Shown one piece after another: positions 1-40,330 of a stretch of 64,000 bases of DNA (the first letter of the stretch is position 1; each line of letters starts with the position of its first letter). Position numbers and translations under genes: made by a program. Source of the stretch: Saprospiraceae bacterium (GTDB lineage Bacteria > Bacteroidota > Bacteroidia > Chitinophagales > Saprospiraceae). Under the pieces are notes generated by a model. That model saw nothing but the letters and a program-made list of their open reading frames with translations. It did no database searches and was not told the origin of the DNA. The stretch is from NCBI GenBank assembly GCA_020629615.1, contig JAHDCZ010000001.1:1-64000 (forward strand). Reading direction: 5' to 3'.

Positions 1-110
1 GGCTTTCATTTTGGCTTGAACCAAAACGAAACAAAAGTTCAAGACGCCTTAAGGCTTCCCTGCAATGCCGCTCCCGCCGCCCACCGAAGGCGTCCATCAG
101 CGCTTCTTAA
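1..110. repeat. Dispersed intergenic repeat, copy A (left-truncated)
   Basis: Non-coding element closely matching the segment from about 2394 to 2500 and more distantly the one at 40079-40125. TTTTGG (9-14) pairs with CCAAAA (21-26). The hairpin loop CTTGAA (15-20) is the reverse complement of TTCAAG (38-43), which is the pattern of an H-type pseudoknot. A tail shared with copy B follows (CCTGCAATGCCGCTCC, then CACCGAAGGCGTC). The GC-rich leader seen in the other copies would lie outside the window. Positions 111-184 hold nothing recognisable before the stop codon of the neighbouring gene. Confidence 0.75.
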
Positions 111-2346: not shown

Positions 2347-2510
2347 GAGATTGTGCTGCCGGACGGGCGATCATTTTTAACATCCCTGCCGGGGGCTTTC
2401 ATTTTGCCTTGATGCAAAACGAAACAAAAGATCAAGACTCCTTAAGACCTCCCTGCAATGCCGCTCCCCGCACCCACCGAAGGCGTCAGGCTGTGCTTCT
2501 GCAATTTTAA
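2347..2510. repeat. Dispersed intergenic repeat, copy B (most complete)
   Basis: This fills most of the 295-base gap between the GH20 and DUF5655 genes. It begins with a GC-rich leader (GAGATTGTGCTGCCGGACGG) almost identical to that of the copy at 40057-40078. The conserved core follows: TTTTGC (2402-2407), loop CTTGAT (2408-2413), GCAAAA (2414-2419) and ATCAAG (2431-2436). Relative to copy A, the changed bases in both stems are compensated. Its tail (about 2440-2495) matches copy A. An open reading frame crossing it on the minus strand has no recognisable content and is not called. Confidence 0.8.
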
Positions 2511-14252: not shown

Positions 14253-17200
14253 TTATTCGATATATATCATTTTTTTTCGAATGATATCATTTTTGAATTG
14301 TAGTTCGATGAGATACACTCCACTATTCTTCAAATCTTCTTTGGTAATTTCTAGAATATGATTTCCTTCTTCTAGACTTAACAATTCTTGCATCTGAATT
14401 TGACCTTGGGCATTATAGATTTTAAAGCTTAGCGCTCCATCTTCAGGGATTGAATAATGTAAATATGTCTTATCGCTCCATGGATTCGGAACATTTTGAT
14501 CCACTCTAAATGTATTTGTTTCAAATCCCTCATCGCGTATATTTACTAACAATTTTTGAACCTTTTCATTCACATACAACTCGTGATTTAATCCATCCGA
14601 AGATAAACTAAACTTGTCTGTTATTATATCTTCTCGTTGATCCAATGCGATGTAAAAAAGAGCTTTGTCTACGTCATCCAATTTTACTGGCAGACCGCTA
14701 GGAGAATACCATAGTATATTTAATTTTCCTTCTTTTTGGAAATAATTAATTCCAGACATTTCTAAGGCTCCAGAGATAAGATTTTCAATTTTCCCATTAA
14801 AATCCAAACTCAATTGGAATCCATCAACACTTATTTCTTTTGTTCCATATACGGGTATCAATTTCTGACCTTCTATTTCTTTCACCATCCTAGGTATTTC
14901 GAATACAACTTCTACCCCACTTCTAAGTTCTATACTTTCTTCTCTTAGGTTAGTTTCCACACTTCCATTCACATCACCTGTCTTCACTCCAACAAAATTG
15001 ATCTCCATATCCTCTGATAAATTATCAATCTCATATTGCTCTGGCAATACTTCCAACCACGGATTGTCTGGATCATTAAAACTATACAAGCCGTCTATAA
15101 ATCTCCAACTCGTATTATTAGGAAACTCATCATATATACCTAAAATCACCTTTCTTAATTCTATCAAATCCAAAGCCGTTATTTCCTCACTTCTATTGAT
15201 ATCCGCTGCAATCAGATCGTATGGATTTGACAAACTCTGTAGTCCCAAAATGTGTTTTTGTATCAACACCAAATCTAAGGTACTTACTCCATTCATCACA
15301 TCATCATTTTTCTCAGGAACCACTACGTAATTTCCACCCATTGGCATCTCTCCAAAACCATACTCTCCTTCTTCCCCTGTCATATCTTGAAAATTTGCAT
15401 CACCAGTCAGGTTAACCTTCACTTCTTCCACATCCTCTTCATATTGATTTTCTATCTGACCTTCTATCGACACCAAACCACCGGTATTACATAAGCTGAC
15501 ATTATTATCATCAATCACTTCAATAAAGGTTTCACAGAAAGATTGATTCCCATTAATATCAGTTACATACAATGCGACGTTTTGAATTCCAATGTCATCA
15601 CAATCGTATATCAGCTCTGTCACAAATCCCTCAGCATCAAAACTCAAGGTGACTGGATATCCACAAACATGAGCACTTCCACCATCGAAGTATGATGGGT
15701 TCAACAGAACCATTTCTGTATCTAATTCTCCATCTCCATCAGTATCCATGCCAAGCAATTGAGTACTTAAACCATTAATACATACTGCCGTCGGTGGTTT
15801 TACATTGACTACTTCAAACATCTGGGTTCCTTCAGTAAAATTCCCACAACCATCTGTGACTCGCCAGGTAATTTCATAATTCCCTATTGGATATTCTCCA
15901 CTAAGGTCATTATTATTGCCAACATAGTCAGCTATGCCATCCCCATCGGCATCGATCTCATAGGACCACACCAAGTCTTCCTCACTAGTACAAGCATCTA
16001 TACCCATTGCCATCAAGCTCAGTTGACCATCCATACATTCGGCATCCAAGGTTTCCACTATAACTGTCGATAAATCACTTGTGATTTGTGGAACACTCGT
16101 TTCATTTATTTTAATCACTTGCTGATGTGTCCATTGTGCAAATCCTCCTGCAATTGGCTGACACCAGTCGATCACAGTCCATGTTCGAACAATTTTAAAG
16201 CAGGCATTATCTCCTTGTACAAAATTGAATACATCATCAACATAGTTAAATGCGACTAGATCACATGGACCATCATCTAGGATAGGCTCACTATTTATTG
16301 CAGGTAAGTCTGCTGGCAAAATATCTGTCACGCCACAAGCTTCGCCTTCATAGTCTGCTGGCCACGTTATATCTGAGGCTAAGATCGGAGTATTGTTGGT
16401 AAAACTGATCACCTGTGTACAAGTTTGGGTCAAGCCCGAATGGCTAATAATACTAAATTCCCTTAGCAATGTTCCTGTACCACACTGATCAAAATCTTCG
16501 GTCGTCACCTCCATCACTTCTTGGGTTGTCTGGCAATTATCACTTACTGTTGCAACCCCAAATATAGCATCCAAGTTGTTCAAATCGTAGTTGGTGGTGC
16601 AAGGAACTGTCATATTTCCGGGGCAGGTCAATACCGGTTCTATCTTATCTTGAACCGCTACATTGATCATACAATCGGTATAATTTCCTGCAGCATCATA
16701 AACTCGCAACTGCAACATTTGTTCTGTTCCGACATCTAAGCAACAGAACGTTACACTTTGTCCAAGCACTGAGTTTCCAACTACACCACAAGCATCTGTC
16801 ATCCTTCTTACTTCAAAGCGATCGATTCCACAATTATCATATGATCCATCATCAAAGGATTCGGCGGAAGCCACTACAGTTCCATTTTGTTTGATGGACA
16901 CTACTGTATTTCCTTCACAGATTGCAATCGGTTGTGTCTCATCAGCTATTGTCAAGGTCATTGTGCAACTATTGCTATTTCCACAAGCATCGTACGCCGT
17001 ATAGGTGATCAAATGATCTCCAACGGGAAGAGTCGCTGTTCCTCCATTCTCATTATCATTGAAACCACCGGGATAAGTTACATCCACTTCTATAGGATTA
17101 CTACAATTATCGCTCACTGTTGCACTTGGCAAGCTTACGGTACCTTCACAATTATTGAATCCATCGCTCGTGCTCAAGGTGATATTGGATGGACAATTAA

Positions 17201-20200
17201 TCGTTGGACCATTCAAATCTTTGATATCGATTAATTGCATCCAAATCATTGGCCCTACTATTCCTGAGCAATACCATTCGCCCACCTGCCATTCTCTTAA
17301 AATTTGAGTGTGGCAACTTGAATTCACTAATACTTCATCCGTGTAACTTGCAAATCCATTACAGAAATTATCAGGCAACATCGGAAATAATGGATTACCC
17401 AAATACATTGGCACTCCGGTTACACTTGGATCTGGATGACCATTTACATCTGTTGCATAGGAAGCATCACATGCAAAATTGATATTTGTAGACAATGGAA
17501 ATACCACTGATCCCAAGTCTATTCTTTCCAAACTAATCACTTGAGTACAGACATTGCTAACATTTCCATAAGCATCTACTGCTTGCCAAGTCTTCGTTAT
17601 CCGACCTGTATAAGATGGATCGCAAAACAAATTTTCATGCACCTCGCTCAATAAGATTAAATCTGAACCGCAATTGTCCATGATCACTGGGTCGGTCGCA
17701 TCTTCGATCGCATTGCAAGCCAAATCCTCATCCACACATACGATTGTCGGAGAAAACTTGTCTTCTATGAATATTTCACCCCAGCAGCTCAAGTGATCAC
17801 AAACAGAACTTAATGAAACCGATACAAAGAACGTTTGTCCTAAATCTATAGGTTCAAAAACATTATCCACGACATTTCCATTTACATCCGTGATAATGAT
17901 AGAATACTCACTTAATGGCAATTCAATTTCTGACAAGATTATTGCGGCCGTAATGGTGGCCTGACAATTTTCGTCTAAACTGACATTAAGGTGTCCTTTA
18001 CAAGATAATCCATCAGGACAAGCGAATAATTTTGCAGGATCATGATCGTCCTCATCAATTAAACCATTATCCGTTATTAGGTCATCAGTGTGAGTAAAAA
18101 TTTCTCCACCTATATCATTGTCTTTATTTGTATCAGGATAACTGTCCATATCCAAATTGGATAGATCTTGTCCGACCATATTACTCATGCCGTAGATTTC
18201 CGCATATCCCAGTAGGTTATGGTTATCAATCGAAGATTTAGCGGCGGTAAATAATTCTACCTCTAAAGAATCTTCTGGAAATAATGCTCCATTATAAATA
18301 TAAGATGCATTAGATCCTATCATAGTCCACTTTGGATTAAGGGACAAATCGATACTAAGATCTTCTGGTGTATAAAACATTAGTTTTACATCTTGAACAG
18401 GTTCCATACCTTGATTATAAACTGTGATTTCCCATCTAGAAGTATCCTCGGCAAAAACAAATTCTTCTGTTGCGGTCATCTTCAAAGCCAAATCGTATAA
18501 TTGAAGATCCTGACATGTATTATCTTCCAAATCCATAACTCCATCATTATTAGCATCTAGAAGTGCCTGATTATAAGTTCCTGTTCCTGGACCATCACAC
18601 TGAGAATAATAACCATCACCAACATTAGTATTTGACAATTGCAATGACATGATTACCGTTACCGTAAAGGTGTAAGTTTCTCCAGAAGGAATATTTCGAT
18701 CATTGGTCAATTCCCAAAGTGAACTATTCGGATCTAATGAACCACCAGAACCAAAACTAGAAGAAAAACTAGCCATTTCAATCAATAAATCATCATCATA
18801 ATCCGGAGCATCAAACAAATCGAAAAGCCCTGCTCTTCCTCCTTGATTTTCAACTATGATTTCATAAGTAAGAGTAAATGTACCGTCTTCATTTGGAATA
18901 TTTTCGATGACTTGTTTATGTAAAACGAGATAATCCAAATCGGCACAAGCATTATCATAATCATCTCCAATTCCATCATTATTGGTATCAATGATCGCAA
19001 CATTATTCACCCCTTTATTCGGATCATTAGAATCACAATTAATATAAACGTTGTCCCCATCGGACTCTTCAGAAAGATCAAGAATTGCTGTAACAATTAC
19101 GGTATAAACATGTGTCGAATTGGAATCGATGGATTGATCATCTGCCAAATTCCATATCAAATCTGAAGGCAGCAGCGTTCCGTTTAAACCAATATTTGTA
19201 GAGAACGAAGACGAAATTATTTCCAAATCATCATCATACAATGGCGTATCCCATAAATCATAGCTTCCGATAGCACCACCAGTATTACTGACTAATATTT
19301 CATAAATCGTGGTATAAGACAGATCAGGATTTTCTGTCATTGAAATCATCTCCTTTCTAATACTTATCGCAGGAAGGTCTCCACATGAATTATCCGAATC
19401 ATCATATATACCATCTCCATTAGTATCAATAAAAGCTTGATTAAAAAGTCCTTGGCCTCCAAGAGGGTTAGTATCACATGCGTCATATACGTTATCCCCG
19501 ACCTCATCATTCAAATTAAGACTCACATTGATCATTAAAGTATAAATATCAGTATCACCGGGATCTAAGCTCTGATTGCTATTTAGTGTCCAACCTTCAT
19601 TAGGCACTACAGAAGAAAGCGTCTCACCAGTCAACAAGGTACTAGTATAACTCGCATAATTAATTGCGATATCGTCATCGTATTGAGGCAAATCTCTTAG
19701 TTCGTACTCTCCTATCAAACCTCCATAATTGGACACCATTATAGTGTAAACAAGATCATACGATCCATCATTTTTTTGCTCACTGAGATTGATAAAATTC
19801 TTTTGAACATTCAATATTGGAACCTCTCCGCAGGCCGAATCAAAAATATCTAAAACACCATCATCATTCGCGTCAAGCGCAGAAGTATTAAAGATCCCAT
19901 TCCCAGATGAGCCATTACACGCACTGTAGATATTATCACCGATCAAATCGTTATCTAAATCAATTGATACATTTAAATTCAAATAATAAGTGTGGCTTTG
20001 TGATGGATCAATATCTTCATCACTGGCAAGGATCCAACCATGCGGACTGGGTAGGATTACATCCAAGGATCCGCTGTTATTCGTGTTACTCGTAAAACTA
20101 GCAGAATTCATGACAATATCATCATCGTATTGAGGAAGGTCATATAGCGTATACGAATCAGAAAGACCCCCTTCATTTTCAACAATGATTTGATAGATTA

Positions 20201-23200
20201 ACTCATAAGAGCCGTCTGCCTGAATCTCAACGCTTGATAAGGTTTTGGACATTACGAGATACGGTAGATCAATACAGGCATCATCGGTATCATTTGGAAT
20301 ACCATCACCATTGGTATCAATAGTGGCTTCATTCTTTAAAGCTCTATATTCTTCGGAGGAGTCACAATTTGAGTAAACATTATCACCCTCGGAGGAATCT
20401 GTAAGATCAATACTTGAACTTACGATTATGTAAAATGTATGCGTGTCACCAGCATCAATCAATTGATCTGTTGCCAATTTCCAAATAGAATCATCCAACG
20501 GAAGAAGTCCATTTAAACCGATATCCGATGTAAATGAACTTGAAATCATCGTGATATCATCATCATAACGAGGTGTATCGTCTAGAGAATAAGATCCTTG
20601 AGATCCTCCAGTGTTGGATACAGTAATTGCATAGTCAATTGTAAATGATAGATCTGTATTTTGAACTACACTTGCCACACTTTTACTCACTTGGATAAGA
20701 GGGAGGTCACCACAGACCTCGTCGGAAACATCAAAGACACCATCATTGTTTACATCAATAGATGCAGAATTAAACAATCCTTGACCGGGGGTAGGATCAC
20801 CATCACAAGTACTTAAAAAATTATCGCCTTGATCATCATGAACATTTAAGGTTACATTAATATTTACAATAAATAAGTCCATTGAGCCAGCACTAAGAAT
20901 TTGATTTGATTTCAAGGACCAGCCATTTATCGGAATGACTTGCGGTAAAGATTCAGAATCTCCGAGCGTGCTTGTAAAGGAAGCTGTGTTTATTAGAATG
21001 TCATCATCAAACTGAGGATAATCAAATAAATCATAGACTCCAGAAACTCCTCCATTATTACTTACCGCAATCATATAACTGATATCATAAGAATCATCCG
21101 AATTTTGAGGACTGATGTTTTGAATACTCTTTTCAAGCATTAATGCAGGCACATCTCCACAGGCAGTATCTGTTATATCTGGTACGCCATCGCTATTTAC
21201 ATCCAATGAACTTGAATTAAAAATGCCATTTCCAACCATTCCGTCACAAGGATCATACATATTATCACCTTCGGAGTCATTTAAATTCAAACTTAGATTT
21301 AGGACTAAAGTATAATCGTGTGTTTCATTTGGATTAATAGTTTGATCACTGGCAAGTTGCCATCCATTTGGATCTGCTATAACTGTTGGTAGAAAGCCCG
21401 AATTTAAAGTATTACTAGAAAAGGATGCAATGTTCAAGTTAATGTCATCATCATATTGAGGGTAATCAAAAAGATCATAATTATCAGCTGCACCACCAAT
21501 ATTCCTTACTTGTATCGCATAGACTAAGTTATAACTTCCGTCCTCCTGAATAGTCGAACTTGAAAGTGTTTTTGTAATAGTAAGATATGGAGCATCAAAG
21601 CACGCATTATCGGTTTGATCAATGATCCCATCTAGATTTTGATCTAGACTTGCCTGATTAGCCAATCCTCCACCTGTATTTTCGTCACAGGAATTGTTAT
21701 AAACATTATCGCCTAATGAATCTGGACTTAGATCTAGACACACTTCATAACTTATCGTGTAGGTATGTTTTGTCATGGCATCAATTGCTTGGTTTGATGC
21801 CAAATTATATTCCAAAGAAGGGCTAAAAGATGTACCCAAATTTGATGGTACATTACTCACAAAGCTCACGTTAGAGATCGCAAAATCATCGTCAAACATT
21901 GGAGCATCGAATAGATTATAATGAGTTGGTGCTCCTCCAAAATTTTCTACTGTAATGACATATTGAACTGAGTAGCAATTCAAGCTTATATCGGAAATAG
22001 ATTTGATCGTTTTCGTTAATTCAAGAGACGGAACTTCAGCACAAGTTGTATCAGACAACGTTTCTCCCATTCCATTTTCAATCAGGGCAACGTTAAATAA
22101 CCCATTACCTGCCATGCCTTGACATGAAGAATATTGGTCATCTCCAATATTGTCATTAAAGTCTAGCTCAACATTTAAATTTAACGTAAAAATATGTTCT
22201 TCTCCATTCACAATGATTTGGTCTGATGTTAATTTCCATGGAAGATTACTTTCATTTAGAGTTGCAAATGGAGAAATTGAACTTATAAAACTGGCGCTAT
22301 TAATTATAACATCGTCATCATATTGCGGACTTTCGTCCAATGAATATGTATCCGGAGCGTCCCCAGTATTTTCTACAATAATTTGATATGTTAAATCAAA
22401 ACTACCATCAGATTTTTCAACACTTGATAATAAAGATTTTTCAAGAGATATCGCAGGGCTACAAGGAGAAGGTAGTTCTATTGATGAGGAAGCTTCGCAG
22501 GATTGATTTAAAAATCCAATGAACACATTTTCGATATTCCCAGTGGCGGGAACAGTAACACTCAAAGTCAAAGGACTAGTATAACTTATTAGCTGCACAG
22601 TATCTCTAAAGGATCCAATTTCGACAAAAACATCTTCCTCTTTATAAGGCCCAGACCATTCTAAATTAATATCGACTTTAGTCATACTTTGATTACAAGC
22701 ATTCGCCGTAAGGCTAGAAATCAAAATATTACAACCGATATTATTACAGACATAATTGGTAATATCATCGATTCCATCGTCTACAATAGCAATGTTGCAA
22801 GCATGTGTTTGATTATCTCCAAAATTGACAAACTCAGCCTCAAAACAGGCGATATAGTTTAAAGAACGATTCAGCGTTGAAGGAAAAATCCATCCGTCCT
22901 CATCAAATGGATTTGGTGAAGATGGAAGAACATTATCTGTAATTTTGTGATTTTCTCCATCGAAAAAATAATAAGATGATTCAGGGATATAAGAATAGAA
23001 ATCTGGAAAATCATCAATAAGGATTACGGAATTTTGATCAAAATCCAATTTTCCGATATTTTCAACACACATGCAAAACTGAAGTGTGTCTCCTAAATTA
23101 AGTAATCCATCATTATTTCCGTCGTAAATAAAATCTGAATATTTCTTTAATTGCAAGGTCGACAAGTGACTAATAGACGTACCCACATCGATTGCTGGCG

Positions 23201-24746
23201 AACCTCCAGAGGCGGTGTTCGGATCTTGTCCCCATACTGTGGAAAGAATGGCGTCTGAACCATCACAAACCCAAATAGACATACCTGTCTGATCTCCATC
23301 CGGGTCGTATATTTTTAGGGTTTCTAATTCTTCCAAAGATGCTGTGATGTCATATGAATTGCCTTTAGTATCCGTTAAAGGGCCACCATCTCCATTATAA
23401 TCAATACAAATTGCGATTTCTCCGGTTGAAGCCGAAGCGATAGGAAAAGCAGGCGTCAACCAAACTGGAGCAGAGTTTTCGGTAGAAGTTCCAGTGTAAG
23501 AAGGATCTTGTCCAGGTGCAAAAGGTACTCCTAAAACTTGTTGTTTTAGTATTGATTCAGGCAAAACGGAATAACCCCAATCATTTGTTTTATTGGGATT
23601 GTTCTCACAGGCACTACCGGATTGTTCTTCCGAATCAATGGTAGAGACCAAATAAAAATTTTCGTCCGAACTAAATCGAGCGGCATCATTATTCGGAACA
23701 ACGATGTATGTTGAGTTTCCCGAGGGAATGTTAATAGGCAATTGAATTCCTGATGAGCTTAATTCCCAATCAATAGAAATTGCAATAGGGTTCGGATTGT
23801 AAACATGTACATATGTCGGCGCATTTGATGGAGTGCTTACTGGTGTAATATATGCATTACCAAGTTTCTCTTGTGGAATTAAGGAAAACCATCTAGATTC
23901 AAAATTAGCGCATATATCACCTGTAACAGCAGTGACATTAATGTCTTTATTTGATTTGATCGTCGCACCCAAATTGATTCCTCCAGGCACTAAATATGAA
24001 GCCCCCATATCAAGGTTTATTGTTTTCTCAACGACCCCATTATTATCGGCATCGATTGAAACAATTGTTCCGTCGTGATATGCGGTAATAAACCCACCAG
24101 TATATTCAAACATTTCATTTACGTCTGCGTTTTCTCCCATGGGAAATTCGAAACATTTACCCAGAACGAAACCAGGATTCAAAGTTGTCGCACCAGCAAG
24201 TAGTGTGGATGAACCGTTAGCCCAAGTTGAAACTGTTGCACTTAAATTAGAGGTAGCTGCAAACTTGTCCATCGCATCAAATTCAATAGTTGCCGCTGTA
24301 TTAGGTAATTCGATCGCGGAAAGAAGAGTTACAATACTTCCATCGAAAAAAACATCAGTAGCATACCCCGAAGCAATTCCGTTAGAGGGGTCATTATCTC
24401 CCCATACAAGAGTAGAAGACTGAGTTGGATTAGAAATATCCGTCTCATAGCCATCTTCCCAGTGATCCCAATAAATGATAGTACCTGATTTTACCACCGT
24501 CATGGAAATAAACTTGTTGATTGGTGATTTTACATCAAATGCAGTACTAGTTGAATTACAACATTCTATGTTGCCAGGAAATATTGTTGAAAAGGCATCG
24601 AAAGTTTGCTGTTCATTGAAAGGAACAAAGAACTCGACAGCGATAGCATCATCAGAACACGATATAACTGTTTGAGCATGTGCGCAAGCAGTACTAAAAA
24701 CAACAATAGTACTGACCAGCACAACGCGAACATTGTGGAATAACAT
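14253..24746 (-). CDS. Giant T9SS surface protein 1 with nine 147-aa tandem repeats
   Basis: Predicted cell-surface or secreted adhesin-like protein of 3497 aa. An N-terminal signal ends near AHAQ. Residues 30-500 contain a domain with TIIYWDHWEDGYE and TGGFITAYHDG that resembles the IgGFc-binding N-terminal fold. Residues about 760-2080 hold nine tandem units of about 147 aa. Each has VxNxGG, a DxPQYDDD motif, WxLASDQ and a Ca-binding-like loop DxNxDGxxDxxDxxC. Next comes a Cys-rich region with HYR-type domains (about 2250-2980), a carboxypeptidase-regulatory-like domain and a dockerin-like segment (about 3150-3215, GVSTLDLVLIQKHIL and AADINRSEEITALDLIELRK). A cohesin-like beta domain and a T9SS type A sorting domain with NVPNPWSDKT follow. 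The last ~1300 residues are paralogous to giant protein 2, encoded upstream. Partners are unknown. Confidence 0.88.
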   Translation of the reverse strand: MLFHNVRVVLVSTIVVFSTACAHAQTVISCSDDAIAVEFFVPFNEQQTFDAFSTIFPGNIECCNSTSTAFDVKSPINKFISMTVVKSGTIIYWDHWEDGYETDISNPTQSSTLVWGDNDPSNGIASGYATDVFFDGSIVTLLSAIELPNTAATIEFDAMDKFAATSNLSATVSTWANGSSTLLAGATTLNPGFVLGKCFEFPMGENADVNEMFEYTGGFITAYHDGTIVSIDADNNGVVEKTINLDMGASYLVPGGINLGATIKSNKDINVTAVTGDICANFESRWFSLIPQEKLGNAYITPVSTPSNAPTYVHVYNPNPIAISIDWELSSSGIQLPINIPSGNSTYIVVPNNDAARFSSDENFYLVSTIDSEEQSGSACENNPNKTNDWGYSVLPESILKQQVLGVPFAPGQDPSYTGTSTENSAPVWLTPAFPIASASTGEIAICIDYNGDGGPLTDTKGNSYDITASLEELETLKIYDPDGDQTGMSIWVCDGSDAILSTVWGQDPNTASGGSPAIDVGTSISHLSTLQLKKYSDFIYDGNNDGLLNLGDTLQFCMCVENIGKLDFDQNSVILIDDFPDFYSYIPESSYYFFDGENHKITDNVLPSSPNPFDEDGWIFPSTLNRSLNYIACFEAEFVNFGDNQTHACNIAIVDDGIDDITNYVCNNIGCNILISSLTANACNQSMTKVDINLEWSGPYKEEDVFVEIGSFRDTVQLISYTSPLTLSVTVPATGNIENVFIGFLNQSCEASSSIELPSPCSPAISLEKSLLSSVEKSDGSFDLTYQIIVENTGDAPDTYSLDESPQYDDDVIINSASFISSISPFATLNESNLPWKLTSDQIIVNGEEHIFTLNLNVELDFNDNIGDDQYSSCQGMAGNGLFNVALIENGMGETLSDTTCAEVPSLELTKTIKSISDISLNCYSVQYVITVENFGGAPTHYNLFDAPMFDDDFAISNVSFVSNVPSNLGTSFSPSLEYNLASNQAIDAMTKHTYTISYEVCLDLSPDSLGDNVYNNSCDENTGGGLANQASLDQNLDGIIDQTDNACFDAPYLTITKTLSSSTIQEDGSYNLVYAIQVRNIGGAADNYDLFDYPQYDDDINLNIASFSSNTLNSGFLPTVIADPNGWQLASDQTINPNETHDYTLVLNLSLNLNDSEGDNMYDPCDGMVGNGIFNSSSLDVNSDGVPDITDTACGDVPALMLEKSIQNISPQNSDDSYDISYMIAVSNNGGVSGVYDLFDYPQFDDDILINTASFTSTLGDSESLPQVIPINGWSLKSNQILSAGSMDLFIVNINVTLNVHDDQGDNFLSTCDGDPTPGQGLFNSASIDVNNDGVFDVSDEVCGDLPLIQVSKSVASVVQNTDLSFTIDYAITVSNTGGSQGSYSLDDTPRYDDDITMISSSFTSDIGLNGLLPLDDSIWKLATDQLIDAGDTHTFYIIVSSSIDLTDSSEGDNVYSNCDSSEEYRALKNEATIDTNGDGIPNDTDDACIDLPYLVMSKTLSSVEIQADGSYELIYQIIVENEGGLSDSYTLYDLPQYDDDIVMNSASFTSNTNNSGSLDVILPSPHGWILASDEDIDPSQSHTYYLNLNVSIDLDNDLIGDNIYSACNGSSGNGIFNTSALDANDDGVLDIFDSACGEVPILNVQKNFINLSEQKNDGSYDLVYTIMVSNYGGLIGEYELRDLPQYDDDIAINYASYTSTLLTGETLSSVVPNEGWTLNSNQSLDPGDTDIYTLMINVSLNLNDEVGDNVYDACDTNPLGGQGLFNQAFIDTNGDGIYDDSDNSCGDLPAISIRKEMISMTENPDLSYTTIYEILVSNTGGAIGSYDLWDTPLYDDDLEIISSSFSTNIGLNGTLLPSDLIWNLADDQSIDSNSTHVYTVIVTAILDLSEESDGDNVYINCDSNDPNKGVNNVAIIDTNNDGIGDDYDNACADLDYLVLHKQVIENIPNEDGTFTLTYEIIVENQGGRAGLFDLFDAPDYDDDLLIEMASFSSSFGSGGSLDPNSSLWELTNDRNIPSGETYTFTVTVIMSLQLSNTNVGDGYYSQCDGPGTGTYNQALLDANNDGVMDLEDNTCQDLQLYDLALKMTATEEFVFAEDTSRWEITVYNQGMEPVQDVKLMFYTPEDLSIDLSLNPKWTMIGSNASYIYNGALFPEDSLEVELFTAAKSSIDNHNLLGYAEIYGMSNMVGQDLSNLDMDSYPDTNKDNDIGGEIFTHTDDLITDNGLIDEDDHDPAKLFACPDGLSCKGHLNVSLDENCQATITAAIILSEIELPLSEYSIIITDVNGNVVDNVFEPIDLGQTFFVSVSLSSVCDHLSCWGEIFIEDKFSPTIVCVDEDLACNAIEDATDPVIMDNCGSDLILLSEVHENLFCDPSYTGRITKTWQAVDAYGNVSNVCTQVISLERIDLGSVVFPLSTNINFACDASYATDVNGHPDPSVTGVPMYLGNPLFPMLPDNFCNGFASYTDEVLVNSSCHTQILREWQVGEWYCSGIVGPMIWMQLIDIKDLNGPTINCPSNITLSTSDGFNNCEGTVSLPSATVSDNCSNPIEVDVTYPGGFNDNENGGTATLPVGDHLITYTAYDACGNSNSCTMTLTIADETQPIAICEGNTVVSIKQNGTVVASAESFDDGSYDNCGIDRFEVRRMTDACGVVGNSVLGQSVTFCCLDVGTEQMLQLRVYDAAGNYTDCMINVAVQDKIEPVLTCPGNMTVPCTTNYDLNNLDAIFGVATVSDNCQTTQEVMEVTTEDFDQCGTGTLLREFSIISHSGLTQTCTQVISFTNNTPILASDITWPADYEGEACGVTDILPADLPAINSEPILDDGPCDLVAFNYVDDVFNFVQGDNACFKIVRTWTVIDWCQPIAGGFAQWTHQQVIKINETSVPQITSDLSTVIVETLDAECMDGQLSLMAMGIDACTSEEDLVWSYEIDADGDGIADYVGNNNDLSGEYPIGNYEITWRVTDGCGNFTEGTQMFEVVNVKPPTAVCINGLSTQLLGMDTDGDGELDTEMVLLNPSYFDGGSAHVCGYPVTLSFDAEGFVTELIYDCDDIGIQNVALYVTDINGNQSFCETFIEVIDDNNVSLCNTGGLVSIEGQIENQYEEDVEEVKVNLTGDANFQDMTGEEGEYGFGEMPMGGNYVVVPEKNDDVMNGVSTLDLVLIQKHILGLQSLSNPYDLIAADINRSEEITALDLIELRKVILGIYDEFPNNTSWRFIDGLYSFNDPDNPWLEVLPEQYEIDNLSEDMEINFVGVKTGDVNGSVETNLREESIELRSGVEVVFEIPRMVKEIEGQKLIPVYGTKEISVDGFQLSLDFNGKIENLISGALEMSGINYFQKEGKLNILWYSPSGLPVKLDDVDKALFYIALDQREDIITDKFSLSSDGLNHELYVNEKVQKLLVNIRDEGFETNTFRVDQNVPNPWSDKTYLHYSIPEDGALSFKIYNAQGQIQMQELLSLEEGNHILEITKEDLKNSGVYLIELQFKNDIIRKKMIYIE
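18505..22470 (-). repeat. Nine tandem ~441-bp coding repeats
   Basis: The DDD codons of the units recur near 22315, 21890, 21447, 21003, 20563, 20122, 19674, 19232 and 18795, which is a spacing of 425-448 bp. The units diverge at DNA level but keep the protein pattern. Units 3-4-5 match units 6-7-8 in order better than they match each other, which indicates a higher-order triplet. Confidence 0.9.
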
Positions 24747-25285: not shown

Positions 25286-28200
25286 CTAATTGATTAAGAT
25301 CATTTTATTTCGAACTGTAGTTTCACTATTGGACAATTCAATGTAATAAATTCCTCTTGCAGGGAATTGATTTGAAGTCAACTCCACGGTATGAATACCT
25401 GGGAGGTATGTTTTAGTTGTATTTAAGATCAACTTACCTGCTACATCAAATATTTTCATTGTTAACTCATCAGAATCAACTACTGAAAATTTAATTTGCG
25501 TGTTGTTTCTCCAAGGATTCGGAACATTTTGGAACAATGTAAGTTGACGAGCTTGTTCAAATTCAGTTCTTAACTCTAATCCTCTAATTTGATTCGCACT
25601 ATACAACTCGGCATTTGTGATCTTCGAATTGACATCCAATTGCTCATTCGAATCAAATGCTTTTCCATTAAAAGTAAATTCTAATAATGGTTCATTTTGA
25701 TTTAGTGAAACTTCATCAAGGCTATTCCAACTTATTGTGATTAAGCCATTTTCAAGTCTATTCAACGAAATATTAGAATCCTCTAAGTCTATGACATCAG
25801 AATCAATATCAATAAAAGCTCTATTCGAATTATCAAATTCAAAAGTCAATTGGAATCCATTAACTTGTTTTAAATTTTCTGGATATAAACCAAGAACAAA
25901 ATTATCATTTGACATTTGAGAGATTTTAGCCTCTAGAATGACGGTCTCATCAAATCTATTATCAAAACCACCAATCAAGTTTGAGCCATCATAAGAAGCA
26001 TTTACGTCACCAATTTTAACACCAATAAAATCTACATTCATATTAGAATTCAATTGATCGATGTAATATTCCTCTGGGAACAATTCGGCAAAAGGATCAG
26101 CAGGTATTGGGAATTCATAACTTGCGTCAATCATTCTCCAACTTGTATTATTGGGCAACTCGTTGTATACTCCTAAAATTAATTTTCTTAACTCTATTAA
26201 ATCAGAAGCTGTTATCGTATTAGATCTATTAATATCAGCGGCAATAATCTTGTATGGACTGTCTAAGGTCTGTAATTGTAGAATATGCTTTTGAATTAGA
26301 ATTAAATCTAAAGTACTAACACCTTCCATATCATTGATATCCTTTTCGGGCATTACAGTATAAGTACCCCCCGTAGGCATATTAGGGAAACCATACTCTC
26401 CATCATCATTAGTCATGATGACTGGAAGATCCGCTCCTTGGAGATCAATCTCTACAGTTTCTACAAATATGTCATTTTCAGTCCTAACAACACCTTCTAC
26501 ATTTGCCACCAAATTCATAGTACAAACATTTAGTGGATCAAGTAAAGTGACTAACGATTGACAGAAACTAAAATTTCCAACTTCATCAACTGCAACAATA
26601 TATACCGGTTGCATAATGTCGACGTCATCGCAATCTACAGTTAACAATTGTGTTGGATTGGTAAATGTAGGATCATCTTCTGAAATGGGATCCACAAAAA
26701 ACAAATCAATATCAATAGAATCCGAACAATTGTCTGATAGTAAACAGACAAAATCTTCAGGCATCAAGGTAATTGACAATGGTCCTGAATCATCCAATTC
26801 TGGCATCAATTTTTTACAATCCATTACTGGTGGTGTAATATCATCACCGGTAGAACTGACAAAGACACTATCAATACTACTATTCCCACAAGCATCTAAG
26901 GCTTCAAACCGAACATAGAATTCACTCATCGGATAATCACCACTAATATCTCCACCTACAGAACTATTGGCGAAAGGTGAGTCATTGGTAAAAGAGACCA
27001 AATTACAATCGACAGCTTGCGCTACAAAGTTCAATTCAGTCTGACACACAATGAAAATTGTATCAGGTAGTGGTTCAGTGGCCGATACATTAATAATCGG
27101 TGCATCAGTATCTTGAATTATAATCGTTTGGTCAAATGTGAAGATTCCATCGCCTGAGACATTATCTAATTGACATGAATCAATAACCGTCCAAGTCCTT
27201 AAAATGGTATCTGGACAAACATTGGTAGGATTAGTATCCACATCCACAAAATCAATGCTAATATTAGCACAATCTGTATTAGGAATTGAAAGCACTGGAC
27301 TTCCTGTATCTGTATCATCCAAACAGCTGGTCAAGTTAACTGGAGTTGCGGGCCATGCTATGTCCGTATCACCATCAAATATATCTGAGGGTAAACCTAC
27401 CGTAATAAATTGCGCACATTGTTGCACATTATTTGATGCATCTGTCGCAGTAAATGTTCTTATAATTAAACCTGCACCACAATTATTTGTATTTCGAGTA
27501 ACAATTTCAGAAACTAAAACACCAGGACAATTGTCAGAAACAGAAGGTATTCCAAATGCAGTTAAATCATCCGTATCTGCATCACATGCCACTGTAATAT
27601 TGGCTGGACATGATAAAGAAGGTAAGGTATCGTCAGTAATGGTAATCGTGGCACTACATTGTGAACTCATCCCATTATCTGATGTTACCGTTAAGATGAC
27701 TATATTGTCACCCACGTCATCGCAATCAAACATTGTTTGATCCAGACTCAAATCTAAACTTGATGAACAACCACCAGTACTTCCGTTATCTACTTGATCT
27801 GCGGTAATAACTACGGCACCATTCGCGTCAAGCGATAAGCTCAGATCTTGTGCTATACAAAGAGGACTTGTTATATCTTCAACGGTTACTGTGGCTGTGC
27901 ATTGACTTGTGTTTCCTGCAAAATCAGTTACCGTAAGAGTTACAACATTTTCACCCAAGTCATCACAACCAAACTCTGTAACATCCAAACTTAATCCTAA
28001 AGCTAAACTGTGAGTACAATCGTCGGAACTTCCATTATTGACATCATTGGCTGTAATCGTTGCCACTCCATTGGCATCAATCGCTACCGTAATATTTTGT
28101 GATTGACAATCCGGAGGAGTACCATCCAATACGGTCACCGTAGTAATACAAGTATTCGAATTACCGCATTCATCAGTGACAGTATAAGTTACATCAGTGA

Positions 28201-31200
28201 TACCAACTGGATAAACTCCACTTGCGTTACCAACATTACTATCCGCAAAAGCTGAATTGTTTGTTATAGTAATTCCGGTGTTACAAGGAGCCGTAATGAT
28301 TGGGTCCCCTATTGCTACAAAGGTCTCGCAATTTCCAGCAGTATTAGAAACCGTTACATTTGCAGGACAATTTATTTGTGGGGGCGCTTGATTTACAACA
28401 AACAATGTTTGATTAAAAGTCACTTGTTGATTTTCAGCATTGCAACCTATATCAATGGTCCAAATTCTTGTAATATAACTACAAGTTGAATTTGGGTATG
28501 GAAAAACAATACCATCGTTAAAACTAATTGTAAAATCATCACAATCGCAATCTCCAATAATGGTCACCATGCTATTCAGTGCTTCTGGACTTAAATCTGC
28601 ATCACATCCAGGAGAAACTGTAATTTCAGCTTCAGGATAAATGATACATTCTTCAGGGTCAGGACAACCATCAACATCGTTATTATCTTGAACTTCTATC
28701 GTAGTATTACAAATCGATGTATTTCCATTTTCATCTGTCACCCATAGTGTCACTTCATTATCACCAATATCAAAACAATCGAATACCAGTTTGTCATCAT
28801 CTACATCAGCCGAAAAACTCACATCGACGTCATATCCGCATGAATGAAAACTTCCGGCATCTATTTGATCTGAAAACAAACATGCCATTTCAGTATCGAT
28901 CTCGCCATCCTCATCCAAATCCATTGGAATCAAAGCTATACTCAAGCCATCGATACAGTAAGCCGTTGGTGGTTTACAATTAACTACGGTAAATTCTTTC
29001 AAACACGAAGTACTATTTCCGCATTGATCTTCAAACGTATAAAGGATGGTGTGCGTTCCTAATGGATAAACTGTACTCACATCAATCGTGGAACCTACCC
29101 CAGAATCCGTCATCAAATTGGTACCATCCATATTCACATCAATCACATAGGTCCATTGTAACATATTATTAGGGGTACAATCATCTGTTGCTGACACTGT
29201 CAATTCAACAAAGCCGTCCATACATTCAGGATCAAAAGTACAAACTGAGATAGGTTCACAATCTCCAATAATTACTGGAGCCGTGAAATTGCTAATTTTA
29301 ATTACTTGACTATGCTCACAAGGTACATATCCCGGTGTATCCATTTCACACCAATCGATGATCGTCCAAGTTCTAACAATTTTGAAACAAGAATTGTTAT
29401 CATCTTCAAATGGGAATAAAGCATCAACATAACTCATACCCACTAAATCACAGGCATCTTCAGTCACCTGAGGATATGCATTAGCCGAAGGTAAATTGTC
29501 TGGTGACAAGTCATCCGCTAAACAACTCAATTGACTATCATAATCTTGCGGCCAAATCACATCCAAGCAAGTAAATGGTGTAGGATTTGTCACATAAATT
29601 CTTTGAGTACATTGGGCAGACCCGTTGGCATCCGATGCCACAAAAGTACGTTCAACATAACCTTCTCCACATTGATCTAAGAAATATGCTTCAGAAGAAG
29701 TAATGGTCACCTCACAAGCATCTACTGCAGTTGCTTCACCAAATTCAGAAAAATCACTTTGTGAAAAGTCATAACCGCAATCCACAAATCCATCGGCTGG
29801 ACAAGTAATCGTAGGTGCAAACTTATCTTGAACCTCAACATTAACCATGCAATCGTTATAATTTCCATTGATATCATAAACTCTAAATACAACTACTCGA
29901 GATTCTCCTACATCCGTACAACAGAAAACTATACTTTCTCCAAATTCATCATCTCCTACTCTACAGATCGCATCAGAATCCATCCTACGGACTTCAAAAC
30001 CCAATAGTCCGCATTCATCATAAGAACCATCATCAAAGACCGAAGCAAAAACTTCCGCTTCGCCACCCTCGTTCAAACTAACAACCGTAAATTGATCGCA
30101 AACTGCAACTGGCGCAGTGAAATCCTCTACAATCACATCAATGGTACATTGAGAAGCATTTAGGCATACGTCTAAAGCTGTGTAAGTAATTTGATGTGAT
30201 CCAACAGGTAATGTAATTACCCCGCCATTTACTCCAGTCATTGTTCCAACTGGTGTATCCATATTTACTGAAAGTCCTACTTGATTACAATTATCAATTG
30301 GAGAAATTGATGGCAATACGAAAGTAGCGCTACATTCAGAACCATTGGTTTGTACAGTCATATTATCAGGACAGGTGAATGTCGGTGCCTGATCATCGAC
30401 AATTTCAATCACTTGCTCACAGGATAAGAAAGGACTATCATCACACCACCATTCAGAAACCACCCAAGTTCTTATAATCTTAATAATACATCCATCATTT
30501 GATATTACATTATCGGAGTATCCAGTGGTAACGTTACACAAACCTGCAAAGGTTGGATATACCGGATCACCATTTAGCATAGGCACACCCGTAACATCAG
30601 GATGTGGATGACCACTATCATCAGTTGCAAATGATCCACAAGCCAAAGGATTCTCAGTAACCATCATGAAGTTTTGAGGGAAATCAATTTCAGAAAACAT
30701 TAAACCTGAAACAATGGTAGTTGCAGCTCCCAAGCCACCATCTGTTGATTCAGCAGAAAAACAAAACTCATCCCCTTCATTGAGAAAGACAGAAGAATGT
30801 CCAGATTGAGACAAGTTTGAAGTACCATCTGTCAATGAATAAAACAAACCATTATGATAATATCCAAATGGATCGAAGCTAGAATTTGAATTGGAAGAAA
30901 CATAAGTCCAATTGAAAACCATTGATCCTCTTTCTGTCACGGTAATGCAAAAATCAGTTCCATTTGTCGCAGAAATCACACCATTATTTGACCCAGTAAG
31001 TGTAATTGTATTTGGAGCACCTGACACGTCAACAACACCATCTCCTTCAACAGTAGTTACCCAATTGGCAACGTCTAGATCATCCGTAAAATTAACTGTT
31101 TTATCCAAATTTATTCTTTCCAACATTATTGTTTGAGAGCATACTGACGATACATTACCCCAAGCATCAGTTGCTTGATAAGTACGATCAATTTGACGAA

Positions 31201-34200
31201 TAAAATCGTCATCACATTCTAAAAGAACATCTGTTTCAGAAAGTAAAGTTACCGTCGGAGCGCTATCACAATTATCAACAGCGAGAGGTCCTTGGTAAGT
31301 CAACATCTCTGCACAGCTTAAGGTAATATCTTCACAAAGTACTTCAGGAGCTAACTTATCTTCCGCTGTTATATAACCCCAACATAAATTTCCAGAACAA
31401 CCATCGATCAACTTGAACACTACTTGCATCCCGATATGTTCAGTGGTCAAGGTATTATTTGGGATTACTTCACCATTCGCGTCAAGCAACATAACAGCAT
31501 ATCCCGCAGAAGAAGTTGGTACTCCAGCAAGAACCATTAGTGGAGTTACTTCTAATTCACAATCAGCTCCAAGAGACATGTTCAATTCTCCAACACATGC
31601 GATAGCACCAACAGCAGTCCCTACAGCAACGTTTAAAGTAGACGGTGCTATACAAGCTCCAGCCATAGTCTTCACTAATTCAACCGTATAATCGCCGGCT
31701 GCAGCTCCAGACCAATCAATCTCAACAAAATAATCCGTTGATGATCCTACAATCACAGGTCCTGCAGGAGAAACCGTCCATTGATAAGTTGCGCCTAGCA
31801 TTTCTTCAGTAGTATATTCTGTAGTCCCTAAATTACAAGCGGCAACAGGACCTTCAACCACTGGCGTATCATAAGAACATCCACCGCTTATCGTTTCAAA
31901 AAATCCATTTCCATTTGTCAAAATAATAGAATATCCAGCACCTGAATCATGAATCCCCTGCATAGTGTATGTTCCTGCTGGTCCTTCCGTCATAGTAAAT
32001 CCGGCAGGTCCAGTAACAAATGGAGTTCCAGGCATTGTTGCAGGTAAATCAAAGAGATTAACCACTGAATGGATATACCATGTTTGACCAGGATCAGAAA
32101 CAATGGTTATCTCATCTCTAAATTGCCCAGGATCAGTTGCTGTTGCATTATCTAAGCAAAAGCAAGATTCTGTCAAACTAGAATTAACAGGAATCAATCG
32201 AGCAGGATCATGATCATCCTCATCAAGAGATCCATCACCATCCAAGAAATCATCTGATTGAGGGGCGTTTGGTACTCCTCCATTATCATTATTCATATCT
32301 TCATCAGGAGTGGAATCGACATCATTCAATGGAGTTCCATCGGATGTAGAAGCAGAACTGATTTCCGCAAAATTCAACAACTCCGGTAAATTTCCGTTTT
32401 CAACAATCAGTTTAATTTCAAATGATGTATTTTCTCCTGGAAGCAGAGCATCATTGATTTTGATTTTGGCTATTCCTGAATCATAATTCCAGTCAGGATT
32501 TAAATCTTCTGGGAACGAAAATTCTGGATTGATATAATCAACTACGGTAAAACGATCTGCTTGTCGAGACCCTTGATTGTAAACATAAATTTTAAAAGTA
32601 GTTGTATCTCCTTGGCGTACATACAAAGAAGAGCTTACCACTTTTTTCAAAGCCAAATCAAATCGTTCAAGATTTACAACCGCTGGATCGTGATCATCTT
32701 CATCTAAAATTCCATTATCGTCAATTTCATTATCTGTTAGCGTATTAACTTCACCTCCTATATCATTAGACATATCCAAATCCGGTGTTGAATCAAAATC
32801 CATAGCATCTGGATTATCAGCAGTAAAGTCACTAATTTCAGCATAATTTATAATCGATGATCCTTGAGCATTTGCAGAAATATTCAAGTGAAGAACAACT
32901 TCATCCATCTCTCCAACACTCAATTCATCTGTAATAGTATAGGAAACCATATTGTTTCCTATTGCTGTCCAGCCAGGATTTGATGCTGGATTAAAAATTA
33001 AATCGGCAGGTAAATTATCCGAAATGGTTACCGTTTTTGCTCTGACGTTTCCTTGATTAAAAACACTCATTACAAAACTTACTTGATCACCTGGACTATA
33101 GATTTGATCCGGATTTAATAATTTTTTATTTAGAGCCAAATCAAATACTTCAACCATTGCTCCATCGTGATCGTCTTCATCAAAGGTATTATCATCCGTA
33201 ATAACATCATCACTTGGAGAATTTGGGACTCCTCCATTATCATTATCATCAACTTGATCTGGAGTAGAATCAATATCCGAAGAATCATCATCAAACTGAT
33301 CAACCGCCTTGCTGATTTCGGCAAAATTCAACCACTTTCCATTGACACTTTTCACCAACTCAAGGGTAATTGGAATGGTAATGGTTTCTCCAGGATTTAG
33401 AGGCGTATTCACATTGTAGGATGCCATATCACCATTAAGGGTCCAACCAGGATTGTTGGCTCCAACAAATCTAAATCCAGGTTGCAAGTAATCTGTGATC
33501 GTAAATTTATTTGCTCTAACACTTCCTTGATTATATACCGTAATATCAAAACTGACCAATTCACCAATACGAACTGGAACGTTACTAGATCTCTTTTTTA
33601 ACAATGCCAAATCAAATCCTTGAGGAGCCATCAAACCAATATCAAAACTATGATTGATAGCCGATGAGTTTGCTAGATCTACTTCTACAAATATACCCTC
33701 ACCTAGAGACTCACAATTTTCAATCACACCGAGGGCAGCATCAGAATCATTTTCATTACTCTGAGTTCCAAAACCTACATCATTGGTACTAAGGATATAA
33801 TTATTTCCATCGTGAATTACAGCCATAGACTCGGTGTCAAAATCCGTATTTGAAATCTTGACATAATATTTTTCTCCATTATTCAAACCATCCATCTCTC
33901 CGTCTAGATCTAAATCAACATTGGAGTTATTAAAAATATAGTTTCCTTTCGCATCCGTAGTGGTTGTTCCTACTACGTTGCATTGGGCATCATATAATTC
34001 AATTGTAATATTTGCAATCGCTTGTTCTCCCCCATCTTGAATTCCATTCGCATTTGAATCTAACCACACATAGTTACCTATTTCTGGTGATGGCTGTGGA
34101 CAAATTAAACTCAATGCACCAAAACCAGTCGCTTTACCAAAAAGTGGATCTATCGTTTGAGTATATAATTGAATGGCATCCAACTTAGAACCATCTCTAG

Positions 34201-35767
34201 TACTATATCGGTGCAACCCACCTGAATAAGAATCGAAGATAGGATCATAAACTGTAGCGATTACTTCATCCGTTCCCGGGACAACTAAAATACTTCCCAG
34301 CGCTGTTTCATTATGGTAATCAGGACCAGAAGGCCAAAATTCATTGCCAAAAAATTCACCTCCACCAGGACCGTCTCCATTTCCAACTCCAGAACCCGTA
34401 TACGCACCAGCTTTACCGTTATTTTCAAGTCTCCATGTACCGTTATCGTTCCAAGCCATTAATAAATCAGGATACTGCTGATCGAGTCGTCCAGAGCTAT
34501 TATTACAATAACGATGACCTAATCTATCTGTCAAAGAGAGCAACATATTACCATCTCTAGTAAAACCGATATCAGTCAACCAATGCATTGTATGAAGATC
34601 ATTAGCCGGAAAATCCTTCCAATATCCTAAAATATAGTTATCAGATAATATTAAATCGAATTGACCCGTCAACGGATCAAACTCGTAAACATTCAAAGAA
34701 GATTCACTGGCAGACTGTGCAGTTTCTGCAGTACAAGTAACTCCCACATACACTTTCTCATTGTGGACATTCAATGCAAATGCTTGAAATTCTCCATCAG
34801 AGCATCCAGGATCAGGAATAGAATATTCTACCGTACTGGCCTCAGTTGGATTTGAAGTTGACAGTTTAACGATAGAATTTTTGAACAAATTCACCGTATA
34901 CAAAGAAGACTCGTCCGAAGACAAGACCAAAGCACCTAAGCCATAACGCCCGACCTGTGATCCATAATCACAATCATCAACATCGGTAATTGGCAATACA
35001 CCTACATCAACTCCCAAATCAGACATCTTTGCAAACAAGCTCGTCTCTGATTTGGTTGTTCTAAAAATCGCTCCATGACCATGGTTGGTCAATCCCGCGA
35101 ATTGCTTTACAAAAGATGCCGAAAATATCTCTGAGGTAGTTTTCTTTGAAGCCAAACCCCAAACCGAACCCGTTTCTTTTTTGGTCGCTAATTTTCTTAC
35201 AGCGCTCCCCGAATTAAAACCACTTTCTAAAGCGACTATCGTTTCAACCAGATCATTCACACCTTCACCACCCTGCACAAAACAAGTCAAGGCCACATCA
35301 GGGTTATTATCGCATAGATTATCAAATGAGCTTACTCCAAAATTTAATCCACAGGTCGGAGAAGAAGCAAATTGCATCGCAGTATTTGTCTGCGAAGAAA
35401 AATAAGTAGATGTCATGGAACCAATAGATGAAAACTCGATGCGATATCCCGCTCCATCATCCAATCCAGAAATCTGATACGACCCGGCGACATCAGATAC
35501 ACTTTGTCCGACTAAATTATTATTACCATCATAGACTTTGACCATGACGTTACCACTACCTAATTCCGTATCCTCCCATTGACCATTTTGATTGGCATCA
35601 ACAAAAACAGCTCCTTCTATTACGCCAGACGAAGTTGCACATTGAGCAATTAATGAATTTGAATAAAGAAAAGTAGAAAGTAGTAGAACAAAGAATACGC
35701 CTATTCTCTGTATAGCACATACAGAAATAGACGACGCTTTACGCGAAGTAAATGTAAGTTTTCTCAT
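25286..35767 (-). CDS. Giant T9SS surface protein 2 (SdrD-B, DUF11, HYR, dockerin)
   Basis: Predicted cell-surface or secreted protein of 3493 aa with an N-terminal signal ending near SLIAQC. Order of regions: an SdrD B-like domain (about 46-130); a propeller-like region (about 150-555); a second SdrD B-like domain (about 560-712, [15 protein letters not shown]); three DUF11-like domains (about 717-1192, each FDLALxKK ... VYNQGSxRA and an acidic DEDDHD end); a PKD-like domain (about 1300-1376); and a long series of Cys-rich HYR-type domains. A domain of about 143 aa is inserted in that series (about 1555-1697). A carboxypeptidase-regulatory-like domain, a dockerin-like segment (about 3146-3212), a cohesin-like domain and a T9SS type A sorting domain with [10 protein letters not shown] close the protein. 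The C-terminal part is paralogous to giant protein 1. It has its own promoter and terminator. Confidence 0.88.
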
Positions 35768-40005: not shown

Positions 40006-40330
40006 TTAAGGCTAAAATTGATTTTCAATTGATGATTTAGTTGTTTATTTTTAAATGAGATTGTCCTGCCGGACGGGCCTTCATTTTTTTCTTGACGAAA
40101 AAACGGAAGCTAAAAAGTCAAACCAAATTAATCTTCTCCGTCAAGCATCAAATTTGGCTGACTGAACGCCGTGACGTATTCAATACGACCTAAAGAAATA
40201 AAATTCTGATCAAAAAAACGATTACATCTTATTTAGAAATCAAGTATATAAAAACTAAAGCTCATTACGACAATTGAATAATAAGGAGATATTTCTACTT
40301 AATAAAGGGGCAGTAATAATGATATTTTGA
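40006..40330. repeat. Gap carrying dispersed intergenic repeat, copy C
   Basis: The repeat copy spans about 40057-40125. Leader GAGATTGTCCTGCCGGACGG begins at 40057. TTTTTTC (40085-40091) pairs with GAAAAAA (40097-40103), and the loop TTGAC (40092-40096) is complementary to GTCAA (40117-40121). It lacks the tail shared by copies A and B. The rest of the gap is AT-rich with nothing recognised. Confidence 0.7.

Follow-up and report, generated by a model that had tools for sequence, protein, structure and literature searches.

Triple-helix pseudoknots are rare and well-studied RNA folds, described from telomerase and a few riboswitches. In the pseudoknot of telomerase RNA, a U-rich first loop lies along an A-U stem, with the option of a C+.G-C triple. 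Triple helices of the ENE/MALAT1 kind include those in plant and fungal transposon RNAs. Among bacteria, the SAM-V (PMC6061858) and guanidine-III (PMC5696562) riboswitches have the topology and triple-helix principle proposed for the repeat described here, and BrickBuilt of Porphyromonas gingivalis is a Bacteroidota MITE (PMC4596501).

The repeat lies in the window, that is, the whole 64,000-nucleotide stretch of DNA analyzed, which comprises positions 1 to 64,000 of contig C200 of a fragmented Bacteroidota genome. The explanation that best covers all observations is a transposition-spread Bacteroidota element with a triple-helix pseudoknot domain acting as RNA, to which, as a whole, we give an even chance.

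Copies of the repeat in the window and its genome

An earlier note on this DNA had reported three copies in gene-free DNA, each made up of an arm, a loop, a second arm, and a downstream complement of the loop. All three were located by direct reading and their intergenic positions confirmed (Table 1). Copies 1 and 2 were 86% identical (BLAST), and S3 had decayed in copy 3. The note had one copy cut by the window edge; this is copy 1, and the edge is the start of the contig. Further contigs of the same genome likewise start inside copies. The leader that the note had placed before the second copy belongs to a truncated extra copy adjoining it (leader GAGATTGTGCTGCCGGACGGGCGATCATTTTT), and copy 2 proper has a reduced leader. 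The two stems stand as described, except that S1 is longer (TTTCA.../...CGAAA) and includes a conserved A.C mismatch on the plus strand that reads as G.U on the minus strand (A8.C27 in copy 1, A2401.C2420 in copy 2). When the minus strand of copy 2 was folded, S1 was an 11-pair hairpin. The note had missed the minus strand as the better-supported one, the putative triples between linker and S1, the closing stem S3, and the spread across the phylum.

Table 1. Positions of the repeat copies and their parts in the window
Feature	Position	Strand	Description and basis
Copy 1	1-108	-	Cut at contig start; R1 covariance model match, 101.9 bits, E 1.8e-18
Copy 1, stem S1	Arms 4-14 and 21-31, around loop 15-20	-	Direct reading
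Copy 1, S1 core TTTTGG/CCAAAA	9-14/21-26		Direct reading
Copy 1, loop CTTGAA	15-20	-	S2 strand, partner TTCAAG at 38-43; direct reading, S2 covariation
Copy 1, linker CAAAAG (minus: CUUUUG)	32-37	-	Proposed third strand; register match to arm CAAAAC
Copy 1, closing stem S3	Arms 44-50 and 87-93 (span 44-93)	-	Conserved GC-rich domain between arms
Truncated extra copy adjoining copy 2	2347-2379	-	91% match to 40057-40088
Truncated extra copy, leader CTGCCGGACGGGC	2356-2368		
Copy 2, near-complete element	2380-2501	-	R1 match, 116.2 bits, E 1.5e-21
Copy 2, core	2396-2438	-	R2 core model match, E 1.1e-8
Copy 2, reduced leader CCTGCCGGGGGC	2385-2396		
Copy 2, stem S1	Arms 2397-2407 and 2414-2424	-	Direct reading
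Copy 2, S1 core TTTTGC/GCAAAA	2402-2407/2414-2419		
Copy 2, loop CTTGAT	2408-2413	-	Pairs with ATCAAG at 2431-2436 (stem S2); direct reading, covariation
Copy 2, linker CAAAAG	2425-2430	-	Proposed third strand
Copy 2, closing stem S3	Arms 2437-2443 and 2480-2486 (span 2437-2486)	-	One mismatch; direct reading
Copy 3	40057-40172	-	5' part complete, decayed past S2; R1 match, 76.4 bits, E 5.2e-13
Copy 3, leader hairpin H0 GTCC-TGCC-GGAC	40063-40074	-	
Copy 3, S1 (T-run/A-run), loop TTGAC, linker, partner GTCAA	40084-40121	-	Direct reading
Copy 3, S1 TTTTTC/GAAAAA	Around 40086-40102		Partner GTCAA at 40117-40121

A covariance-model search of the genome and its relatives, which the note had suggested, recovered the element genome-wide and in relatives. 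In the window's genome, BLAST and covariance models applied to the whole assembly found about 20 copies or remnants of a repeat of ~130 nt. Across ten of these copies, 96.9% of cells were paired, and the covariation score was 0.266 compared with 0.100 in shuffled alignments, none of 500 shuffles scoring as high. The leader hairpin H0 (GTCC-TGCC-GGAC) covaried, with GCCT/AGGC and GTCT/AGAC variants, and in the own-genome alignment it was 100% paired with two-sided changes among copies. Directly after S2 came S3 (ACGCCTT/AAGGCGT), which was 98.6% paired among the own-genome copies and had the covarying variants TCGCC/GGCGA and CCGCC/GGCGG. In a variant of this genome (L070, L071, L063, and L066, on C123, C205, C80, and C126), the 3' arm of stem 1 was swapped for a GAGCGACTGATGCGCAGCAAGATTGATGGAATCAATTTAAGGAGTGAACCGAAAGCAAACCTTTCGGG module; L066 kept the CTTGAT/ATCAAG pairing. 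The window also holds two adjoining giant ORFs of 3497 and 3493 aa (14253-24746 and 25286-35767, minus strand) that have internal repeats in common, encoded by ATCATC-rich DNA.

Covariation of the stems and the probable folding strand

Covariation was assessed over 122 distinct matches, chosen by S1 and loop only, with S2 ignored. In this set, loops ending in C (..GAC) were followed by the partner GTCAAG in 57 cases and by ATCAAG in one, loops ending in T (..GAT) by ATCAAG in 40 and by GTCAAG in none, and seven control hexamers had no occurrences. The first three outer S1 positions, left free in the pattern, were Watson-Crick paired in 77, 81, and 84 of 97, as against 35, 30, and 41 after shuffling. 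In a core alignment of 69 sequences, 97.1% of cells were paired and changes on both sides occurred at 12 pairs; covariation scored 0.354, as against 0.103. For S3 across the phylum, S2 was followed by a complementary stretch of 9 bp or more in 43% of named loci and in 1.5% of swapped controls. Minimum-energy folding against shuffles was uninformative because the structure is a pseudoknot.

Covariation in the sequences establishes the pairing of S1, S2, and S3, and the fold is almost certainly an H-type pseudoknot. This is what the earlier note had proposed from compensated changes in both stems; examined for absent covariation or one-sided conservation, S1 and S2 covaried strongly in the window's own genome and in the wider sets.

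At the first four outer S1 positions of the plus strand, A.C occurred 36 times and G.T seven times, where shuffles predicted 55 and 43. Since plus-strand A.C is read on the minus strand as a tolerated G.U, and A.C mismatches on the minus strand are avoided, the minus strand is very likely the one that folds. Such a pattern is most readily explained by folding of RNA. In genome G075, one-sided changes in a long stem beside the pseudoknot were mostly G.U on the minus strand, and the minus strand of the copies folds as a rod plus pseudoknot. In minus-strand order, the parts are S3, S2a (CUUGAY), a U-rich linker (U5-8 plus G), a T-rich S1a, S2b (RUCAAG), and an A-rich S1b.

Register between linker and stem

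The linker, taken in the direction leading away from S2, was matched against the stem arm, taken in the direction leading away from the loop. The register was exact in 93 of 109 elements; 2000 shuffles averaged 35 and never exceeded 49. The A-runs of linker and stem were of equal length in 94 of the 109. Most elements in every class obeyed the register, and the 15 linkers off register were mostly so by one base; the right-end linker of G075 is one U longer than the stem run. An interior G-C pair of the stem was mirrored in the linker (on the minus strand, C opposite G) in L003, Bacteroides L171, L179, and L196, and the viral-contig copies L252 (two) and L254, and, by inspection, in L014. Such interior-G stems occur in several separate lineages. 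Pattern searches for stems with an interior C returned few true elements and were the source of several interior-G test cases.

At the sequence level, therefore, linker and stem are in register and covary three ways. Copying of one arm is ruled out as the source, as it would yield a direct or inverted repeat, not a mirrored match. The mirrored register is the one predicted by U.A-U and C+.G-C triples, and from it we consider a triple-helix pseudoknot very probable, in which the linker would occupy the major groove of S1, in parallel orientation to the purine strand.

The same register bears on whether the repeats are neutral palindromic debris, their structure incidental and their covariation a product of repeat conversion. 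Copies within a genome are indeed similar and many are decayed; however, a mirrored linker-arm register that is present in every class cannot come from copying, and register, S2 covariation, and occurrence in every class together contradict an origin as debris, the probability of which we put close to nil.

Occurrence across Bacteroidota

A pattern of S1 and loop, blind to the S2 partner, was searched over 84,980 genomes and returned at least 118 stretches, nearly all of them from Bacteroidota among the matches listed. An S2 partner was present in 104 of the 132 matches listed. In a breakdown by class, 82 of 87 S2-positive elements were from Bacteroidota, including the classes Flavobacteriia, Bacteroidia, Cytophagia, Chitinophagia, Saprospiria, and Sphingobacteriia, and the five others came from one assembly labelled Williamsia (three), an unassigned source, and a candidate phylum. 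Among the matches listed, then, the element is essentially confined to Bacteroidota. With a 46-nt core model, 53 of the 99 genomes sampled from the class were found to contain it, and core counts were highest in G075 (at least 57), G456 (44), and G531 (41). L206 and L239 are typical Bacteroidota elements in the assembly labelled Williamsia sp. E01 (Actinomycetota), where they probably reflect mislabelling or contamination.

Several variants were observed. Pseudoknot cores occurred in tandem at a spacing of 57-69 nt in L169 (519-595), L239 (7275-7355), and L231 (958-1060). In a G034 subfamily (L026, L038, L046, and L053), a CATTCGA loop and the S3 3' strand, also CATTCGA, compete for one TCGAATG, so that the two pairings are mutually exclusive folds. 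A G001 subfamily (L028, L039, L047, and L054) has an S1 loop of 3-5 nt and no S2, retains S3 and an A-rich linker, and is similar to the hairpin at the left end of the MITE in G483.

Mobility and element ends

The element is short (~130-490 bp), non-coding, and multi-copy (up to at least 57 copies). The note's suggestion of a mobile miniature element held in four other genomes (G075, G483, G007, and G020), in which the element has terminal inverted repeats (TIRs) and target-site duplications. In G075, 40 aligned copies gave an element of ~480 bp with TIRs AACTGAnTATCCGC.... Copies with both ends had clear 6-bp target duplications (e.g., TCTTAT, AATATT, TATAAT, ATACTT, TTCTTA, ATTAGA, and AATTGT). 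These elements carry a second, inverted pseudoknot near the left end, whose loop is unrelated (GGCA with TGCC) but whose linker register is identical. TIRs in G483 were similar to those of G075, with 6-7 bp duplications; G007 had the TIR GAGTCCACTCCGAAAA and a duplicated 6-bp ACAATT, and G020 a distinct TIR, GGGTGCGGCTCC, and 8-bp duplications. The pseudoknot module is thus carried in at least two MITE end types.

No TIR or duplication was found at the own-genome copies (the window subfamily) or in G531. TIR and duplication searches on single copies were at about background, clear ends coming solely from multi-copy genomes, and a TIR pattern search of G075 for an autonomous partner gave no obvious 1-3 kb pair. 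In an empty-site comparison of the congeners G001 and G002, gene order was not conserved; the G001 region before the copy-3 orthologue was without the element. We regard mobility of the element as highly likely, inferring it for the window's genome from the ~20 dispersed copies. It may be that the short forms are derived, or that they spread by another route.

Mobilization of a REP-like element by a RAYT (REP-associated tyrosine transposase) would accord with one copy in G036 that lies 260 bp from that genome's only PF01797 gene. Some 20 other RAYT-type loci were without a copy, however, G006 and G007 have copies and no PF01797 match, and the elements are longer than REPs and in some cases have TIRs. 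With a single adjacent case, and copies in genomes without a RAYT, this route was rejected as very improbable.

Within the G075 elements (L426-L447, minus-sense CTGTCTGAGCGCAGCGAGTCTGG), a conserved inner module, GAGCGNAGCGAG, varying to GAACGNAGTGAG, consists of a 2-bp stem with a GNA loop, both enclosed by tandem G.A pairs. The reverse complement of this module, AAACTCGC..GCTCAAACAG, is found again close to many copies throughout the phylum.

Genomic context and proposed role

Copies were somewhat more frequent 3' of co-oriented genes (40 vs. 23), a weak preference that had no counterpart on the other side (36 vs. 29). All-against-all BLAST of flanking ORFs revealed no recurrent neighbor gene, ABC ATPases alone recurring, at scattered positions. 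A cis-regulatory riboswitch was rejected for want of an orientation rule or a recurrent neighbor gene. No Rfam family matched at gathering score. Literature searches by sequence and topic, with subscription journals and ISfinder outside their coverage, found no paper that gave the sequence or described such an element, and the phylum-wide combination of a probable triple-helix pseudoknot with MITE mobility is new to the sources searched.

We think it likely that the domain acts as RNA rather than as single-stranded DNA. Once the minus strand is single, the domain would fold into a stem plus triple-helix pseudoknot, and as RNA it would form a compact obstacle to nucleases and helicases where transcripts passing through the element have their outward-facing ends. 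Such an obstacle might stabilize these transcripts, in the way that REP hairpins and the triple helices of ENE/MALAT1 stabilize the RNAs that carry them, and by this analogy protection of the 3' ends of transcripts leaving the element is a tentative proposal, possible rather than probable. The elements may also, at somewhat less than an even chance, make up a class of mobile non-coding RNAs across the phylum, each transcript ending in a built-in triple-helix pseudoknot, with unrelated TIR types and selection on the RNA module.

Alternatively, the fold could work as single-stranded DNA during replication or strand transfer, recognized in trans by a recombinase or transposase as are attC sites and IS200/IS605 ends. 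In its favor, the element reaches a high copy number without a coding partner, and in G075 the left end has the second, inverted pseudoknot close by. Triples of the C+.G-C and T.A-T kinds are classical in DNA, where G.T wobble also forms, and the inner module offers a GCGNAGC-type mini-hairpin; GCGAAGC, which the tandem-GA module can contain, is an exceptionally stable DNA mini-hairpin. Against such a role, the definable ends have TIRs and duplications typical of double-strand cut-and-paste, replication-strand bias judged by GC skew was not significant (p = 0.17), and Y1 transposases do not track the element. A function as single-stranded DNA is, in our judgment, rather unlikely.

The pseudoknot and hairpins might also serve as a bidirectional terminator or insulator that renders insertions harmless to neighbors, and the intergenic positions, the hairpin beside a T-run, and the inverted pseudoknots at both G075 ends are compatible with this. 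On the minus strand, however, the U-run precedes the S1 hairpin, 6 nt from S3 and with S2a between the two, which is not canonical and led us to reject an intrinsic terminator. The sole terminator-like match near copy 2 was at chance level, and neither the loop pairing nor the triple register is needed for termination, so we consider this role decidedly improbable.

Comparison with known systems

If the triple-helix reading is true, the element, with its tens of copies and its spread through much of a phylum dominant in the gut and the environment, would supply a large natural set of triple-helix sequences, with three-way covariation, for testing folding rules. As a class of mobile RNAs, it would be a bacterial counterpart to the triple-helix elements of eukaryotic transposon RNAs. 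It would also raise the testable question of why mobile elements retain such a structure, and it accounts for abundant unannotated intergenic repeats that break Bacteroidota assemblies.

With the telomerase RNA pseudoknot, the element shares the H-type fold, the U-rich first loop along an A-U stem, and the C+.G-C option; unlike it, the element is bacterial, dispersed, and multi-copy, and no template region or reverse transcriptase partner was found. SAM-V and guanidine-III riboswitches sit before specific genes, whereas the element has no fixed gene, orientation, or Rfam match. ENE/MALAT1 elements include triple helices in mobile-element transcripts, as is proposed here, and are a possible analogue of function, but the ENE clamps a poly(A) tail via an internal loop and the triple proposed here would be built within one pseudoknot. 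REP/RAYT systems (PMC2817692, PMC6006769) are similarly dispersed, intergenic, structured repeats; the element differs in having no REP-type short palindrome and no consistent RAYT association. BrickBuilt-like MITEs resemble it in being short, non-coding, and multi-copy, with TIRs and target duplications, and what sets the element apart from them is a conserved pseudoknot common to the phylum and to differing TIR types.
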